A DNA stretch of 64,000 bases, from the NCBI RefSeq assembly GCF_036785885.1, contig NC_092323.1, forward strand, positions 6,518,501 through 6,582,500, written 5' to 3'. The translations under genes were made by a program, and so were the position numbers. Shown piece after piece: positions 3,171 through 32,505 of this stretch. The notes under the pieces are model-generated. The model had not been told where the DNA came from. It ran no database searches and saw only the letters and a list, made by a program, of their open reading frames with translations. Source of the DNA: Coffea arabica. Lineage: Eukaryota; Streptophyta; Magnoliopsida; Gentianales; Rubiaceae. Within the stretch, counting starts at the first letter, position 1. Each line of letters begins with the position of its first letter.

Positions 3171-3516
3171 CAAGTCTACGAAGGCTTCGGCTCTCTTTGT
3201 CCATTCTTTTACGGGCTAAACAAATAGGTGGGATGCATTAATGCCTTAATAATTTAGGCCAGCGGAGTATCTTTTTGTAGCAGGGAGTAGGGTAAGAGTA
3301 GGTGACTGATGGTAATGCATGCACAAGTGGCTAGCTTCACTACAAGTGGCTAGCTTATTTGCTGCGTTTCGCTAATCTCGTAGCAGCATTTTTTTTTATC
3401 ACTAATCTCGTATTTAAAACCGTATTAGTCAGGACAAAATAAACGTGGATATGCATTGATTAGGAGTCACATTTGATGTGTTTGGAATTGGACTAACGCA
3501 CCAGGAACTTAAATGG

Positions 3517-3685
3517 TCTCAGTCTTGCGCTTCGATGAGTTGCAGAGAATGTTATAACCGGAAAAAGATTGGGATTTTTGGGAGCAATAATGATGCCAGC
3601 TCTCGGTCTTGCGCTTTGACGAGTTACGAGGAATGGTATATATAACCAGGAAAAGGATTGGGATTCTGGGGAGCAATAATGCCAT
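3517..3685. repeat. Tandem duplication, unit about 84 bp
   Basis: Unit 1 (3517-3600) and unit 2 (3601-3685) both start TCTC(A/G)GTCTTGCGCTT and end with GGGAGCAATAATG. They differ by scattered substitutions and small indels, so the duplication is not very recent. Confidence 0.75.
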
Positions 3686-26400: not shown

Positions 26401-27933
26401 CTAGGGGAAAAAGCCCGCGCCACGCGCGGGAGTTTAGTACCTGTAATTAAAGATAGTTAATAATTATTATTTGGTATTTTGTAGTATAAGAATTGAAATA
26501 TGACATTTTTATTACGTGATATTAAACAGAAAAATCATAAATTACATATTGAGTCAAAAAATATAATATGCAATGAAATATAATTATAAGATATGATCAA
26601 TCATTTTGCGTTTAATTAGATAAAATAAAATATCTACTTATATCTGCTCATGCATTTTAGGGATATTAAAATTTGTTATTTAGTTTGAATTTGATCTTGA
26701 TATGAGGGTAATCCACCACATTATCTTGTCATATAAGTGAGATTTGAACAGTTAGCATTCTTGAAGAAATTATTGCCAGTGGAATTTCAGTTCTTGCAAG
26801 CCAAATTCTTGAATTTATATTGATTCCAATGACATATCATCATGAAACCTCCACATTGACGAATCAATCAATTATGATTTATTGTATGATTTAGGACATA
26901 TAGCAAAGCATCTCCTTCTCGATAGGGGTTACAGTTACAAAACATCAATTTTTGACCTAGTTGCGAAAATATACAATAACTAACACACTAATCTAGACAA
27001 ATAATTATCTCAAAAAACATCTTAATCCACTCAATTCAAGAATTAAAAGTAATGAAGTACATACTTTTAAGTAGATGGTTAAACATATTGGGAAATCAAA
27101 TGAAGTGAAAAATGTCTAAATGGAATCATCAATAAAGTAGCAAACAATTTGAAAATTACAGTAACTAATAGTTAAAACAACAAAAGAAGTAGATGCAATC
27201 TATAAATGAAAAAATTTATGATGATAAAATTATTTTAAACCAAAAATAACAATTAATAAATGTGATCTCCTCCCTATCAAGTCTATCTAACATAGACAAT
27301 TGAATTAAAACACTAAAAGAAGTATTGCATATACAACTTGCAAGATCACATATTTCTTACAACCAAAAAAGTAGATTACCTAAAGAAAACATACCTATTG
27401 AGAAAGATGCTGCAAAATGGGAAAGAGGGGTAGCTAATATAGCAACATCCGAATTCAATAGACTATATGATTGTAATGGAACGAAGTTATAAGTAAATGA
27501 AATGAATTTGAATAGATGGGGATTACTATGACAACGGCCAAGAAACCAAACTTCTCTACTAATCAGCATTAATTGTGTCTTAACATCTATATATCATAAG
27601 TTTGCAAATGACTGATGAGAAAGGCTTTAAGAAATTAAGAGACTTGAATATCAATACAATTAAATGATTATAAGGGTTTTTATGTAATTTTACTAAAACA
27701 CAAGTTGATTTCAATTGTACCCAATGTTCAATCAAATATCGGTCACATGTTAAACTTACCCCTAGCTTTAAATATCTAAGAGGACATTTAAATAATTATT
27801 AAATAACCAAATTAGCTATAATGATTCATATTCAATACTCCAATTGCACTTTAAATACTCTCATATTCCCAAAATAGCCCCATCTTTGCGGTTGAAATCT
27901 TTGCCCTAAACTCATTCTTATATAGTATAAGGA
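26401..27933 (-). mobile_element. Non-autonomous Helitron, 1.5 kb, both ends defined
   Basis: On the minus strand the element starts TCCTTATACTATATAAGAAT. It ends with the GC-rich palindrome CCCGCGCGTGGCGCGGG, about 9 bases, then CTAG. These are the TC start and the hairpin plus CTRR end of Helitrons. The insertion lies between A (26400) and T (27934) without duplication, exactly the Helitron target rule. The interior is AT-rich with no Rep/helicase, so it would depend on another element. No captured gene was recognised inside. Confidence 0.85.
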
Positions 27934-28024
27934 TATACACACACACAGCTATTCTGCTTTTCTTGTCAGAATCTACCATACTAGTTAAGTACTGTCTGAT
28001 CGAAGATATATCATTAATTCTTGT

Positions 28025-28218
28025 GAAAAAATGGCCAATTTAGTTCCTAAACTTTTTTTTTCCGTCGATTTAGTCCCTATATATTATTTGTAACCAATTT
28101 AATCCTTAAACTTATATTTCGGTTCCAATCAAGGAACTCAGCGGCGGCACCACCGCATAATTTTCATCATGCTCCTAATCCAGAAACCCAAAAGGGGTAT
28201 TTTAGGGACTTCAATGTT
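28025..28218 (+). repeat. Left terminal inverted repeat of the Mutator-like element
   Basis: Matches the reverse complement of 30487-30681 along its whole length with scattered substitutions. Similarity stops at the GACTTCAATGTTGGG motif. Confidence 0.88.
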
Positions 28219-28249
28219 GGGGACTACCTCCCTCCCACTCTTCCTTTAG

Positions 28250-29332
28250 TCAACAATGGCAACCCACATATCTGTAAAAATAAATGACACACCCAATTCC
28301 ACCAAGAACCAGGACATCATAAACCCCAAGCTTTCTTTCTCTCTCATGCCCCAAAACCCACGGTACGACATCAGAGAAAGGCATCAATTTCATCCTCATA
28401 AAAAACTTGAAAAACTCACACTTATCATCCATTTGCCCAAAAAAAATATATCCCTATCAGTTGAGCCAATGCATCCCTTACAGCCCATCTCATTAAAACA
28501 AATCCAAACAGCCTTCTTATCCCCAAATTTTATCCATCCCAAATAGCTTTGAAAAAGTTCTTGGATTTCCCTAACAAATCATTCGCAACCTGATAAAATA
28601 CAATTCCTTTGACCCAGCTGTAAGTAACCAAGAATGCCAAGATCGCGTACCCATATGCAACTGATAAAATCCCAACAAAGTATATCAATGCTGTGGTGTC
28701 GCATCAGCCTAATTCAAGACCCCCTAGCAAGAAGTGTAAATCAACAACAGCATTTGAATCCTTGGTGGAATCATTAGCATCAGGATGTAACGAGGCGCTT
28801 TCTTAAGGAATTTCTAATGGCTCTGGAGGGTGTATAAAGGCAACCACACCAGACCGTACTGCGAAAGAGACACCATTGTCCACAATGGGGTCGGGCGAAA
28901 AACCCTAGATTGGAGTTGAAATTGGAGAGAATCACAAAGGTTGAAGATGGAGTGGGCTTAATCGGAATCACCCAAGAAGAAGTCTTCGTCAAAGGTGTGA
29001 TGACGGCGGCGAATATGGTGAGGGTGGTGGTGGTGGTGGTATTGTTGGTTGCCAAATAGGTTGAGATGGGAGACGAGGGACTTGAGAGAAGGGTCGCCAT
29101 TGATGGAAGAGATGAGGTAGTGGACCCCCTTCTCGACGTTGAAACAGAAGGCGAAAACGAGATAGATGAGGAAGATAAAGGTGAAGGGATGTGAAATGAA
29201 GAATCGGGTGGTTTTCTTGAAGATTTGGACTACTAATTGATTGCTAATCGGGGAGGGAAGTGAAGCTACTGGAGCTGGTTCGGGAGGACGGTGGCGGTGG
29301 TTCATGGCGGAAGTGAGTTTGGGTTTCTTGAT
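28250..29332 (-). pseudogene. Captured, decayed copy of a plant multi-pass membrane-protein gene
   Basis: Read on the minus strand, the copy begins MNHRHRPPEPAPVASLPSPI. A membrane segment follows (HPFTFIFLIYLVFAFCFNVE), then a His-rich loop and HTFDEDFFLGDSD. After frame changes it continues with LLGGLELG, ALIYFVGILSVAYGYAILAF, VANDLLGK, FVLMRWAVRDALAQLIG and FFMRMKLMPFSDVVPWVLG. In this order the pieces match a plant family of uncharacterised membrane proteins that I recall but cannot name. Several stop codons (for example after GGLELG and after FKAIWDG) and at least one frameshift break it. The family's C-terminal third is missing. There is no sign of introns. The location between MULE inverted repeats marks it as captured host sequence. 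Confidence 0.7.
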
Positions 29333-29379
29333 TGAGTTTGGGTTCATGGCGGGAGGACGGTGCCATACATGCATACTTA

Positions 29380-30417
29380 AGCCCTGTTTGGCACCTGAGT
29401 TTTTTGGAAATTTGTCTAAAACTTTACTGTAGATCACTGTAGAAGTTGTAAAAAAACTTTTATAAGATGAAAAACTTTTTCCTTTTCATTTTCTTTCTTT
29501 CTTTTTCTTTTTTCCTTTTTTTCCTTTCTTTCTTTTTTCTTTTCCTTCATCCCTTCCTCCCTTCCCGCTTCTTCTCCCTTCCCCAAGAAAACCGGCACCG
29601 GGAGCCTCAGCAACTCTCATATTTCCCCCGGCTCTCCGCAGCTTCCCTCGCCCTCAACACCCTCTCCCCTCGCCGCCCAGGCTGCAAAAAACAAGCCAAC
29701 CGAGAAATGGGTTGCGTCCGCACCAAGACAGTAAAAAAGTCCTCCAGCCAAGTCATCGAGCGCTACTACTCCAAGTTGACGCTAGATTTCCACACCAACA
29801 AGAAAGTCCTTGGCGAAGTCGCCATCATCCCATCAAAAAGACTCCAAAAACAAGATCGTCGGGTTCTCCACCCATCTCATGAAACGGATTCAAAAGGGTC
29901 TAGTTTGGAGTATTTCGCTCAAGCTTCAAGAGGAAGAGGGAGAGCGCCGCATGGACTTCGTTCCTGAAGAATCCGCGATCAAGACCGACAGGATTGAGGT
30001 CGATAAGGAGACCATTGAGTTGCTTGCCGTCATGGGTATGAGCGAATTGCCTGGTATTGTCCTCAAGGAGGAACAGTCTCCTCTCATGGTTGGATTTTTC
30101 TTACACAAAGGAGTATTTATCGGCCCCTTCTAATTAAAAAAAAAAAAAAGAAAACCGACACCTAAAGAGTAAAGAGAAGTGATCGGCGCCGGAACGGTAA
30201 CGGAGGTGGTGGCCGGCGACAGAGGTGGTGGTGGGTTGGGGTGGGGGAAGAAGAAGAAGAAAAGGGGAAGGAAATTTTTTTTTTTTTTTGTGTTTTGGGT
30301 ATTTTGAAATGTGTAAGTGAAAAACTTTGAGAAGTTTTTTTAAATTACTGTAGTTAAAGTTGGTAAAAAACTAGTATAAAACAAACTTGAGTAAAAACTC
30401 AAGTTCCAAACAGGCCC
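29380..30417. mobile_element. Nested Harbinger/Tourist-like element carrying an RPS17 copy
   Basis: The termini are AGCCCTGTTTGGCACCTGAG (left) and, reversed, GGGCCTGTTTGGAACTTGAG (right). They match at 21 of 25 positions when extended through the T-run. TTA stands at both borders (29377-29379 and 30418-30420), the target duplication of PIF/Harbinger elements. It sits inside the Mutator-like element, so it inserted later. The interior has a CT-rich block, a broken RPS17 copy and GC-rich sequence (30180-30240) of unknown origin. It carries no transposase. Confidence 0.7.
29707..30132 (+). pseudogene. RPS17: Broken copy of ribosomal protein S17 (eS17) gene
   Basis: The copy starts [20 protein letters not shown] and follows cytosolic eS17 through [20 protein letters not shown]. 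One extra A in an A-run near 29850 shifts the frame. The match resumes with [37 protein letters not shown] and [20 protein letters not shown]. The normal Gly/Arg-rich C-terminus is replaced by unrelated residues ending at a stop at 30130-30132. No introns are present, but plant RPS17 coding regions are, as far as I recall, often intronless, so this does not prove retroposition. The CT-rich sequence just upstream (about 29570-29706) may be the parent's 5' UTR. Confidence 0.88.
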
Positions 30418-30486
30418 TTAGTGTGACATTGGGTTGGAAAAAAAAATTACTCATCTGTCAACGATCCCAGTATTGACTAGTTACAA

Positions 30487-30681
30487 CCCAACATTGAAGT
30501 CCTTAAAATACCCCTTTTGGGTTTCTCGATTAGGAGTATGATGGAAATTATGCGGTGGCGTTGCCACTGAGTTCCTTGATTGGAACCGAAATATAAATTT
30601 AAGGATTAAATTAGCTACAAATAATATATAGGGACTAAATCGACGAAAAAAAAGTTTAGGAACTAAATTGACCATTTTCCC
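30487..30681 (-). repeat. Right terminal inverted repeat of the Mutator-like element
   Basis: Inverted partner of 28025-28218. The outer tip reads GGGAAAATGGTC on the minus strand, against GAAAAAATGGCC at the left tip. Confidence 0.88.
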
Positions 30682-30690
30682 AATTCCTGT

Positions 30691-32505
30691 CAACAAAGAT
30701 GGAAAAAACACTACTTATTTTTCCATTTAAAGCTCTTGAGGATCTCTCAAAGCGATAGTTGCAGCAACAACAGTTTCAAGTAATCGCTATTGATTTTATT
30801 TCTTTTTCTTCATTTTCCTCGCTTAAATCCAAAACATACGCTGTCAGCATTAGATGTATAACAACTAAATTAAATTTAAATTTAAAGTTCAAATTTTACA
30901 TATATATCATCAGTTGAGATTCTCTATATCACTGTTCGGCGCTAAATTCAGTGCCAATCCTACTTTATCATGTAATGGTAGAAAAAATTTAAATAAACAG
31001 CACATGACAAGTTAAATAAATAAGACACTTGGTATAAATATAAAAGTAGCACTGAAAAAGTGGCTCTGAAGATCTCATATGATATATCATGCATCCAATC
31101 ACGATAATATATTTATTATCAGTGTATATAAAATTAATTCTCAGAAATAATTTTCTTTTGGAAACGGAAAGGGTTGAGCCCTTAGGGAGCGTTTGAATCT
31201 ATCATCTTGGGCATCTAAATTGATATCCTTACTTACTGATGATTGGAATTGAACATACTCTTAATGAAAGGGTAAGTAGAGAAAATAATGAGACCATCCT
31301 TTTAAAGTTGGCTGATGATTGAGAAAAATAATGCTAAAGCCAGTGATTAAAGTAATACTACTGGGCTTGGCCGTGGACCAGAAACTAAGCAAAAGTTTCA
31401 ATAATCGCATTCCCGGGCCATGGGACATGGCCCTTGGGCATTTGCTTTAGGACCTAATGCGCGTTAATCGTGAGTTTTAAGCATATTACTTTGCAAGAAT
31501 ATGGTCCCACTAACATCGTGGAAATTGACAATTTATTAGTATTATTATTTGAAAAATGTTATTTGTACTCTATTTTTGGTTATTTGCATTCCCACTATTT
31601 ATTTTATCATATATTCTAATAAGTGAAAACTATATGATTACAATGATGGTGAGAGTGTAATTACCAAAAATGTGAGTGCAAATAACATTCCCCTTGTTAC
31701 TTCTGTTGTCATGGTCGATTCTCGTTGTGATCGTGTAAAACAAATTCATAATAAAGTTGCACAAAATTAGATTTTTTACATGACATAGACTCGCATTTTA
31801 TGTGAATTTAAGGTTTCTCATGGATTAAATCTAGCACATATGGAGGGGGAAAGATAGGGATTAGCAACCTTTAGATGTATTTCTTTCTTTCCCATCCAAA
31901 ATAAGCACAAAAAAACTGGTGGCTTTTCACGGAAATCCAGCAGAACTGAAGGTACTCCATCCACGGCTCCAGCAGTAGCAATGATTCCCAAAACTTTTTA
32001 ACTATTAATTTCGCAAACACAACCTTTTTAATTCTCAAAACCAGATTTCATCCATGTCCCACCATGAGACACTGCGTCTATTCGCAGTTCCTTAAAATCA
32101 GTTTATAGTAAACCTTTCAAGCTCAAAGTTGGAAATTCCCTAACGTATAATTTGGTAAGTCTCGTAAGACATGTCTTAAGACTAGGAATTTTGAGGATTT
32201 ACACCTTTCCAAGCATCACAACAGGTTAAAAGGCGAGGTTCACAGATATAAGCATCATACGCCTCATCAGAATTTCACTTCATATGAGAAATCAACACAG
32301 TGGAAGTAATAATGCAATATCATCAGGGCCTAAATAAGCAGGGTGAGCTGTAAGCTCAACTCACTCACCTCCGACTCTAGCAATTTACATCTACTTATTG
32401 TTGGGTTGAACTGAAAAAGATTTTGAATAAAAATGAAAAGAATAATTATAGGATTGCGGAATATATGGTACACCTCTGTGTCAAATGCAACACGCCTGTC
32501 ATGTA
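30691..32505. other. Intergenic stretch with one MITE
   Basis: The stretch holds a 143-bp MITE (31551-31693) and the 3' flank of the GH43 gene. The rest is AT-rich without recognisable features. Confidence 0.5.
31551..31693. mobile_element. Foldback-type MITE, 143 bp
   Basis: The left arm starts GAAAAATGTTATTTGTACTC. The right arm, reversed, starts GGGGAATGTTATTTGCACTC. The arms align over about 48 bp (roughly three quarters identical), leaving a short centre. The superfamily is unsure because no clear target duplication is visible. Confidence 0.65.

Follow-up and report, generated by a model that had tools for sequence, protein, structure and literature searches.

A putative coffee Pack-MULE hosting a smaller gene-carrying DNA element within its captured gene segment

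The locus at 28025-30681 of the 64-kb window (the whole stretch of DNA analyzed here, C14:6518501-6582500 of Coffea arabica) reads, from its sequence and its relatives in the genome, as a non-autonomous Mutator-like element (Pack-MULE) which hosts a smaller, unrelated gene-carrying DNA element. We consider it very probable that a Pack-MULE with a segment of a DUF7813 gene spread in trans and that a PIF/Harbinger-like element, already holding a copy of eS17 (RPS17), then entered the captured segment at a TTA. An earlier note, made from the sequence alone, had proposed that a second gene-carrying element is nested in a gene-capturing Mutator-like element, and this is supported by both the sequence and its relatives. 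The note also called the stacking of two capture systems unusual; the stacking stands, but it is not very surprising because both families are abundant (a first look gave 771 candidates for the MULE's terminal inverted repeat and 2188 for the inner element's right arm). What the locus offers is a clear and well-ordered case of two kinds of element already known in plants. A search of titles and abstract openings in the literature found, among the papers listed, no coffee Pack-MULE that contains another gene-bearing element, which is no proof of absence. Our genome-wide searches covered 1,197,963,845 bases in 131 contigs. Near-alike copies of both parent genes and of some insertions were found in pairs on contigs with adjacent numbers (C3/C4, C9/C10, C11/C12 and C13/C14), as in an allotetraploid.

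The outer element is bounded by terminal inverted repeats (TIRs) of approximately 195 bp, at 28025-28221 on the forward strand and, located by inverted-repeat comparison and genome search, at 30487-30681 on the reverse strand. Complementarity is 93% between 28055-28221 and 30487-30653 and 97% between 28028-28060 and 30646-30678. A whole-genome search with the left TIR, in which the best 40 of 771 candidates were scored, recovered the right TIR with an E-value of 2.4e-73, so the pairing is not due to chance. Immediately outside are the two copies of a 9-bp target-site duplication, AATTCTTGT at 28016-28024 and AATTCCTGT at 30682-30690, which agree at 8 of 9 positions. The inverted repeats and the duplication described in the earlier note were both borne out, the latter with one mismatch and with a homeologous empty site carrying a single AATTCCTGT. 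Among the matches listed, pairs of TIR matches approximately 1.97 kb apart occur on C6, C9, C12 and C4 with nearly uniform scores and 88% identity to the window TIR, which suggests another MULE subfamily that has spread recently.

The empty site lies on C13. The right flank of the MULE (30682-31900) has a full-length match of 90% identity at C13:4905582-4906762, and the sequence around the start of this match reads ATCATTAATTCCTGTCAACAAAAGCG, with one AATTCCTGT and no MULE. A check for such a site had been suggested together with the original claim, and it came out positive. Therefore, the MULE either arrived after the subgenomes parted or was cleanly lost from C13; one account places the species split at 4-6 million years (PMC11018527). 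The left flank (27000-28024) was useless as a homeolog probe, being mostly a repeat. This repeat of approximately 1.5 kb at 26402-27912, whose bounds are approximate due to an AT microsatellite close by, is located just left of the MULE and is missing from the homeologous C13 stretch. A search with part of it (27000-27935) found matches at the 40 of 837 candidates that were scored, itself included, and the repeat is probably a solo LTR or an LTR-like insertion.

Most of the interior between the TIRs could be traced to a single host gene. A DUF7813 gene segment, consisting of a broken coding sequence of approximately 390 codons and an upstream region, occupies 28223-29379 on the reverse strand, and the remainder of the upstream region, on the same strand, follows at 30421-30486 on the other side of the inner element. 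Over 28223-29321 the segment is 85% identical to two intact, intronless parents at C11:4046434 and C12:3095458, which have a reading frame of 470 codons; the protein of the C11 parent matches Pfam DUF7813 (PF25105) with an E-value of 4.9e-199. When 29362-29379 is joined to 30421 through approximately 30446, the joined sequence matches both parents at 82% across the insertion site of the inner element, and similarity extends more weakly from approximately 30446 to the right TIR. Since parent similarity spans 28223-29321 and both flanks of the inner site, the MULE took the upstream region together with approximately 390 codons, and nearly all of its interior, the inner element aside, appears to be DNA of one host gene. 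The longest stop-free stretch in the window copy is 149 amino acids, compared with 386 in the same parental segment. The two unrelated host gene copies noted earlier are real, with intact parents for both (PF25105 for DUF7813 and PF00833 for eS17), and with broken reading frames both cargoes are now probably inert. Upstream of the C12 parent, a stretch matching the MULE TIR at 70% was detected (L013:1047-1231), within about 100-150 bases of the edge of the captured segment, and none was reported at the C11 parent; the match is possibly a trace of capture from an adjacent insertion.

No transposase was found, as had been claimed: the MULE interior consists of captured gene DNA and the inner element, with the final 30-40 bases before the right TIR matched only weakly to the parents. 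The MULE would be mobilized in trans by a MURA-type enzyme supplied elsewhere. Among the matches listed (150 of 2147 PF10551 candidates against 40 of 771 TIR places, compared by eye), no PF10551 match was located within 20 kb of MULE TIRs, and the closest pair was approximately 30 kb apart, on C9.

Sister copies, for which a genome search had been proposed, were identified at nine further loci with DUF7813 cargo between such TIRs. The cargo search scored 14 candidates in 15 rows, read as 12 loci: the two parents and ten TIR-flanked loci (the window, C11, C10, C9, two on C5, C7, C17, C8 and C20), where the two rows each on C7, C17 and C20, parted by an insertion, were counted as one locus. Eight of the ten are 83-100% identical to the window cargo, and C8 and C20 are more diverged at 72-82%. 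A 9-bp duplication was readable by eye in seven of the ten loci, a count that leaves out the two tandem C5 copies with ends not resolved. It is perfect in C7, C8, C9, C17 and C20 and matches at 8 of 9 positions in the window and C10; no target duplication was found by eye for the C11 MULE. The tandem copies (L015/L016, C5:4869544-4874813) apparently have a terminal sequence common to both.

K2P distances of the window cargo are 0.105-0.107 to the parents, 0.053 to C7 (a part of 502 bases), 0.078 to C11, 0.086 to C9, 0.14 to C17 (a row which includes an unrelated insertion) and 0.157-0.175 to C10 and C5. The C8 copy is 0.54-0.65 from every full-length row and is perhaps a paralog or the product of an older capture. 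A tree that omitted the partial C7 copy and C20 singled out no nearest kin for the window copy. In the C9 sister, approximately 235 unmatched bases (L014:2257-2492) replace window positions 29261-29372 and end beside the same TTA that was used by the inner element; the C10, C11 and C5 sisters show a gap of similar size there.

The inner element extends from 29380 to 30417, has short TIRs AGCCCTGTTTGG / GGGCCTGTTTGG, and is flanked by TTA at 29377-29379 and at 30418-30420. Its left arm (29380-29584, forward strand), pyrimidine-rich in its inner part, is common to sister copies with differing inserts, and its right arm (30163-30417, forward strand) was used for the family search with 30148-30423 as the query. 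A 3-bp duplication alone is weak evidence of an insertion. The proposal of a later insertion with its own ends and TTA duplication nevertheless holds with exact bounds, since sister MULEs and both parents read through the site. The uninterrupted site is fully spanned in C7 and C17 and weakly in C20 (71%), and in C9, C10, C11 and both C5 copies coverage starts 3-7 nt left of the joint and runs to the right; both parents span it at 82%. No match at this site was found in the C8 sister. The target bases are TCA in C7, C17 and the parents, TCG in C20, and TTA in C9, C10, C11 and C5. Judging by its TIRs and duplication, the inner element is probably PIF/Harbinger-like, and it would move by a transposase supplied in trans.

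The inner element belongs to a family with variable content. The right-arm search gave 41 matches in the best 40 of 2188 candidates, of which 20 were converted to loci and 21 were not. We cut out 18 copies with both arms, namely L046 from the eS17 search and 17 of the 20 loci (the window, L025, L026/L058, L027-L030, L031/L064, L032-L035, L037-L039, L042 and L043); L036, L040 and L041 were dropped with a partial or missing left arm. By eye, ten different inserts are present in 14 of the 18 copies: eS17 in three copies and those of L028, L029/L032, L030/L033, L027, L038, L039, L042, L043 and L058. The other four (L034, L035, L037 and L064) lack a foreign insert; also by eye, their pyrimidine-rich and purine-rich arms flank a short palindrome. 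L029/L032 and L030/L033 appear by eye to be two insertions, each present in both homeologs. A matching 3-bp duplication was seen by eye in 10 of the 14 copies with both ends found (six TTA/TAA, with L029/L032 and L030/L033 among them, and four other); three more match at two of three positions and one at none, and a further seven of 21 family loci yielded no ends. TTA/TAA is the main PIF duplication in the Pack-TYPE account of Gisby and Catoni 2022 (PMC8903248).

A pooled search, which scored the best 40 of 74 candidates, pointed to likely sources for seven of the nine non-eS17 inserts (L027, L028, L030, L032, L038, L039 and L058), where a source was judged likely if the insert matched homeologous places or several others; two sources were read directly. 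Among the matches listed, the L042 insert has near-identical copies on C3 alone and the L043 insert matches only itself. A Pfam search of four translated inserts named none of them, apart from one weak, below-cut-off match to an alpha/beta-hydrolase (E-value 0.1); one insert is proline-rich by translation. The L028 and L038 inserts have gaps that were considered as introns in a test for mRNA capture, and both were found to be internal losses; for L038 the C11 homeologous copy keeps the missing piece. The inner family is likely a repeat, high-capture Pack family in coffee. MULE TIRs of the outer family are located approximately 1.1 kb or less from two inner-family elements and outside them (L046:3116-3313; L058:535-731 and 3377-3570), possibly reflecting a shared insertion preference.

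In the window the insert of this family is an eS17 copy at 29600-30135 on the forward strand, running from 5'UTR to 3'UTR with an internal loss of 196 bp and frame damage, and 92% identical to its parents on C11 and C12. The 196-bp gap was considered as an intron and rejected on reading the parent, which shows loss of the end of the coding sequence and part of the 3'UTR, i.e., a deletion. The eS17 search scored 11 candidates in 13 rows: element-borne copies on C14, C22 and C4, the two parents, a diverged pair on C3/C4 and short pieces at four places. The further eS17-bearing elements (C22:12689384 and C4:16551588) have flanks of their own. Because both junctions and the internal losses are common to all three element-borne copies, they derive from one capture followed by DNA transposition. 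All three are on even-numbered contigs, perhaps all in one subgenome.

K2P distances for eS17 are 0.056 between the window and C22 (26 transitions and 2 transversions), 0.079 between the window and C4, 0.091-0.093 between the window and the parents, and 0.005 between the parents. Homeolog divergence at one C9/C10 site is 0.02-0.06 per 500-column window in eight windows, leaving out a last window of 80 bases at the alignment end (0.33). On these distances both captures look older than the subgenome split. The excess of transitions suggests that methylated DNA has decayed fast here, and we assign no dates.

As to the entry of eS17 into the inner family, we lean slightly toward retroposition, in which eS17 mRNA would be inserted into a copy of the inner element, followed by internal deletion and then by DNA transposition. 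The motif AAGAAGACCGGCACC occurs on both sides of the insert, as AAGAAAACCGGCACC at 29585-29599 and AAGAAAACCGACACC at 30148-30162 (14 of 15 positions identical in the window), and an A-run at the junction with the right arm (30136-30149, A14) precedes the right copy. The left copy of the motif is confined to eS17-bearing elements: all three have it, and none of the 15 others read does. On the right, the C22 copy has lost any recognizable repeat. The insert begins, by eye, within a few bases of the transcription start expected approximately 30 bases after the parental TATAAAA, and ends in a T-rich stretch about 227 nt past the stop; such ends are not expected from DNA capture.

The alternative that eS17 was taken up as DNA without an RNA step, whether by fusion of neighboring elements or by a template switch while a gap was repaired, has close to an even chance. 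DNA uptake is the likely route of the family's other inserts, and the two non-eS17 inserts with sources read (L028 and L038) show no sign of splicing and have internal losses comparable to the 196-bp deletion, which is not an intron either. Both the A-run and the motif AAGAAGACC form part of the right arm itself: the A-run is present in most copies lacking eS17, and the motif, with three substitutions or fewer, in 10 of 15 of them (it is missing in L027, L030, L033 and L043, and the sole L028 match, located elsewhere, is due to chance). In the C4 copy GAAAAAGGA separates A-run and motif, as in an ordinary right arm. The sequence CTTCCCCAA, just upstream in the eS17 parent, is compatible with microhomology at the left junction. 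Retroposition also needs a separate loss of the element center, and an exact-pattern search for a cargo-free, center-deleted precursor, a weak test allowing no mismatches, found none. No intron was seen in the parent coding sequence or captured UTR parts, so intron loss cannot decide the route.

The earlier note had ordered the events as capture 1, insertion 1, capture 2 (before or after) and insertion 2. Capture 2 can now be placed before insertion 2, because the C22 and C4 sisters of the inner element contain this eS17 copy too, joined to the arms at identical points. The inner element sits in the captured DUF7813 upstream region and is therefore later than capture 1. Sequence comparison thus places both captures before the inner insertion; that the MULE had reached this locus before the inner element joined it is likely only. 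We propose that the DUF7813-carrying Pack-MULE would have spread to several places, this locus among them, and that the eS17-holding inner element would then have inserted at a TTA within the captured segment. An unlikely variant is that the inner element joined the MULE at a former address and the composite, rather than a plain MULE, inserted on C14. It is consistent with the C13 site, which lacks both elements, but the inner element is absent from this site in all eight readable loci of the nine others bearing DUF7813 (C8 gave no match). A single Pack-MULE can contain several gene pieces, which would favor one complex MULE capturing both genes in successive rounds, with the inner TIRs and TTA coincidental, but we regard this as extremely improbable and reject it: sister MULEs read uninterrupted through the site, eS17-bearing copies elsewhere have flanks of their own, the inner right arm recurs at many places (best 40 of 2188 candidates, window included), and among 20 fetched 3.2-kb inner-arm loci MULE TIRs surround the element in inward orientation in the window alone, those at L026 being nearby but outside it.

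The preferred scheme, a plain Pack-MULE entered later by the eS17-holding element, can be compared with three known systems. Like other Pack-MULEs, the outer element has long TIRs, a 9-bp duplication, no transposase seen, a captured 5' part of a host gene, an intact parent and several post-capture copies; unlike them, it holds a second gene-bearing transposon within the captured segment. The inner element resembles Pack-PIF/Pack-Harbinger elements as described in a Pack-TYPE account (PMC8903248) in being non-autonomous, with short TIRs, a 3-bp duplication, conserved ends and variable host DNA inside. It differs in the cargo-free copies with pyrimidine- and purine-rich arms around a central palindrome and in the ten different inserts in 18 copies, and it was assigned here without a transposase. 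The eS17 copy resembles a processed retrocopy of a ribosomal protein gene in its near transcript length, flanking 15-bp direct repeats and 3' A-run, but it lies between DNA-transposon arms, together with them at three places, and its repeat motif and A-run are also element-native.

We tentatively entertain, at somewhat less than even odds, that three machineries are stacked in 2.7 kb, with a reverse transcriptase copying eS17 mRNA into a foldback PIF-like element, DNA transposition of that element spreading the retrocopy, and one copy entering the captured gene of a Pack-MULE. If true, host DNA or cDNA would fill the break-prone palindromic center of the inner family, making it a general vehicle; a 2026 review still leaves room for an undiscovered mechanism of gene capture (PMC13317346). 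The locus gives an ordered and testable history of two captures and two insertions, with parents, sisters and empty sites in one genome, and an abundant coffee PIF-like family with common ends and differing host inserts is a good set for studying gene capture by DNA transposons.
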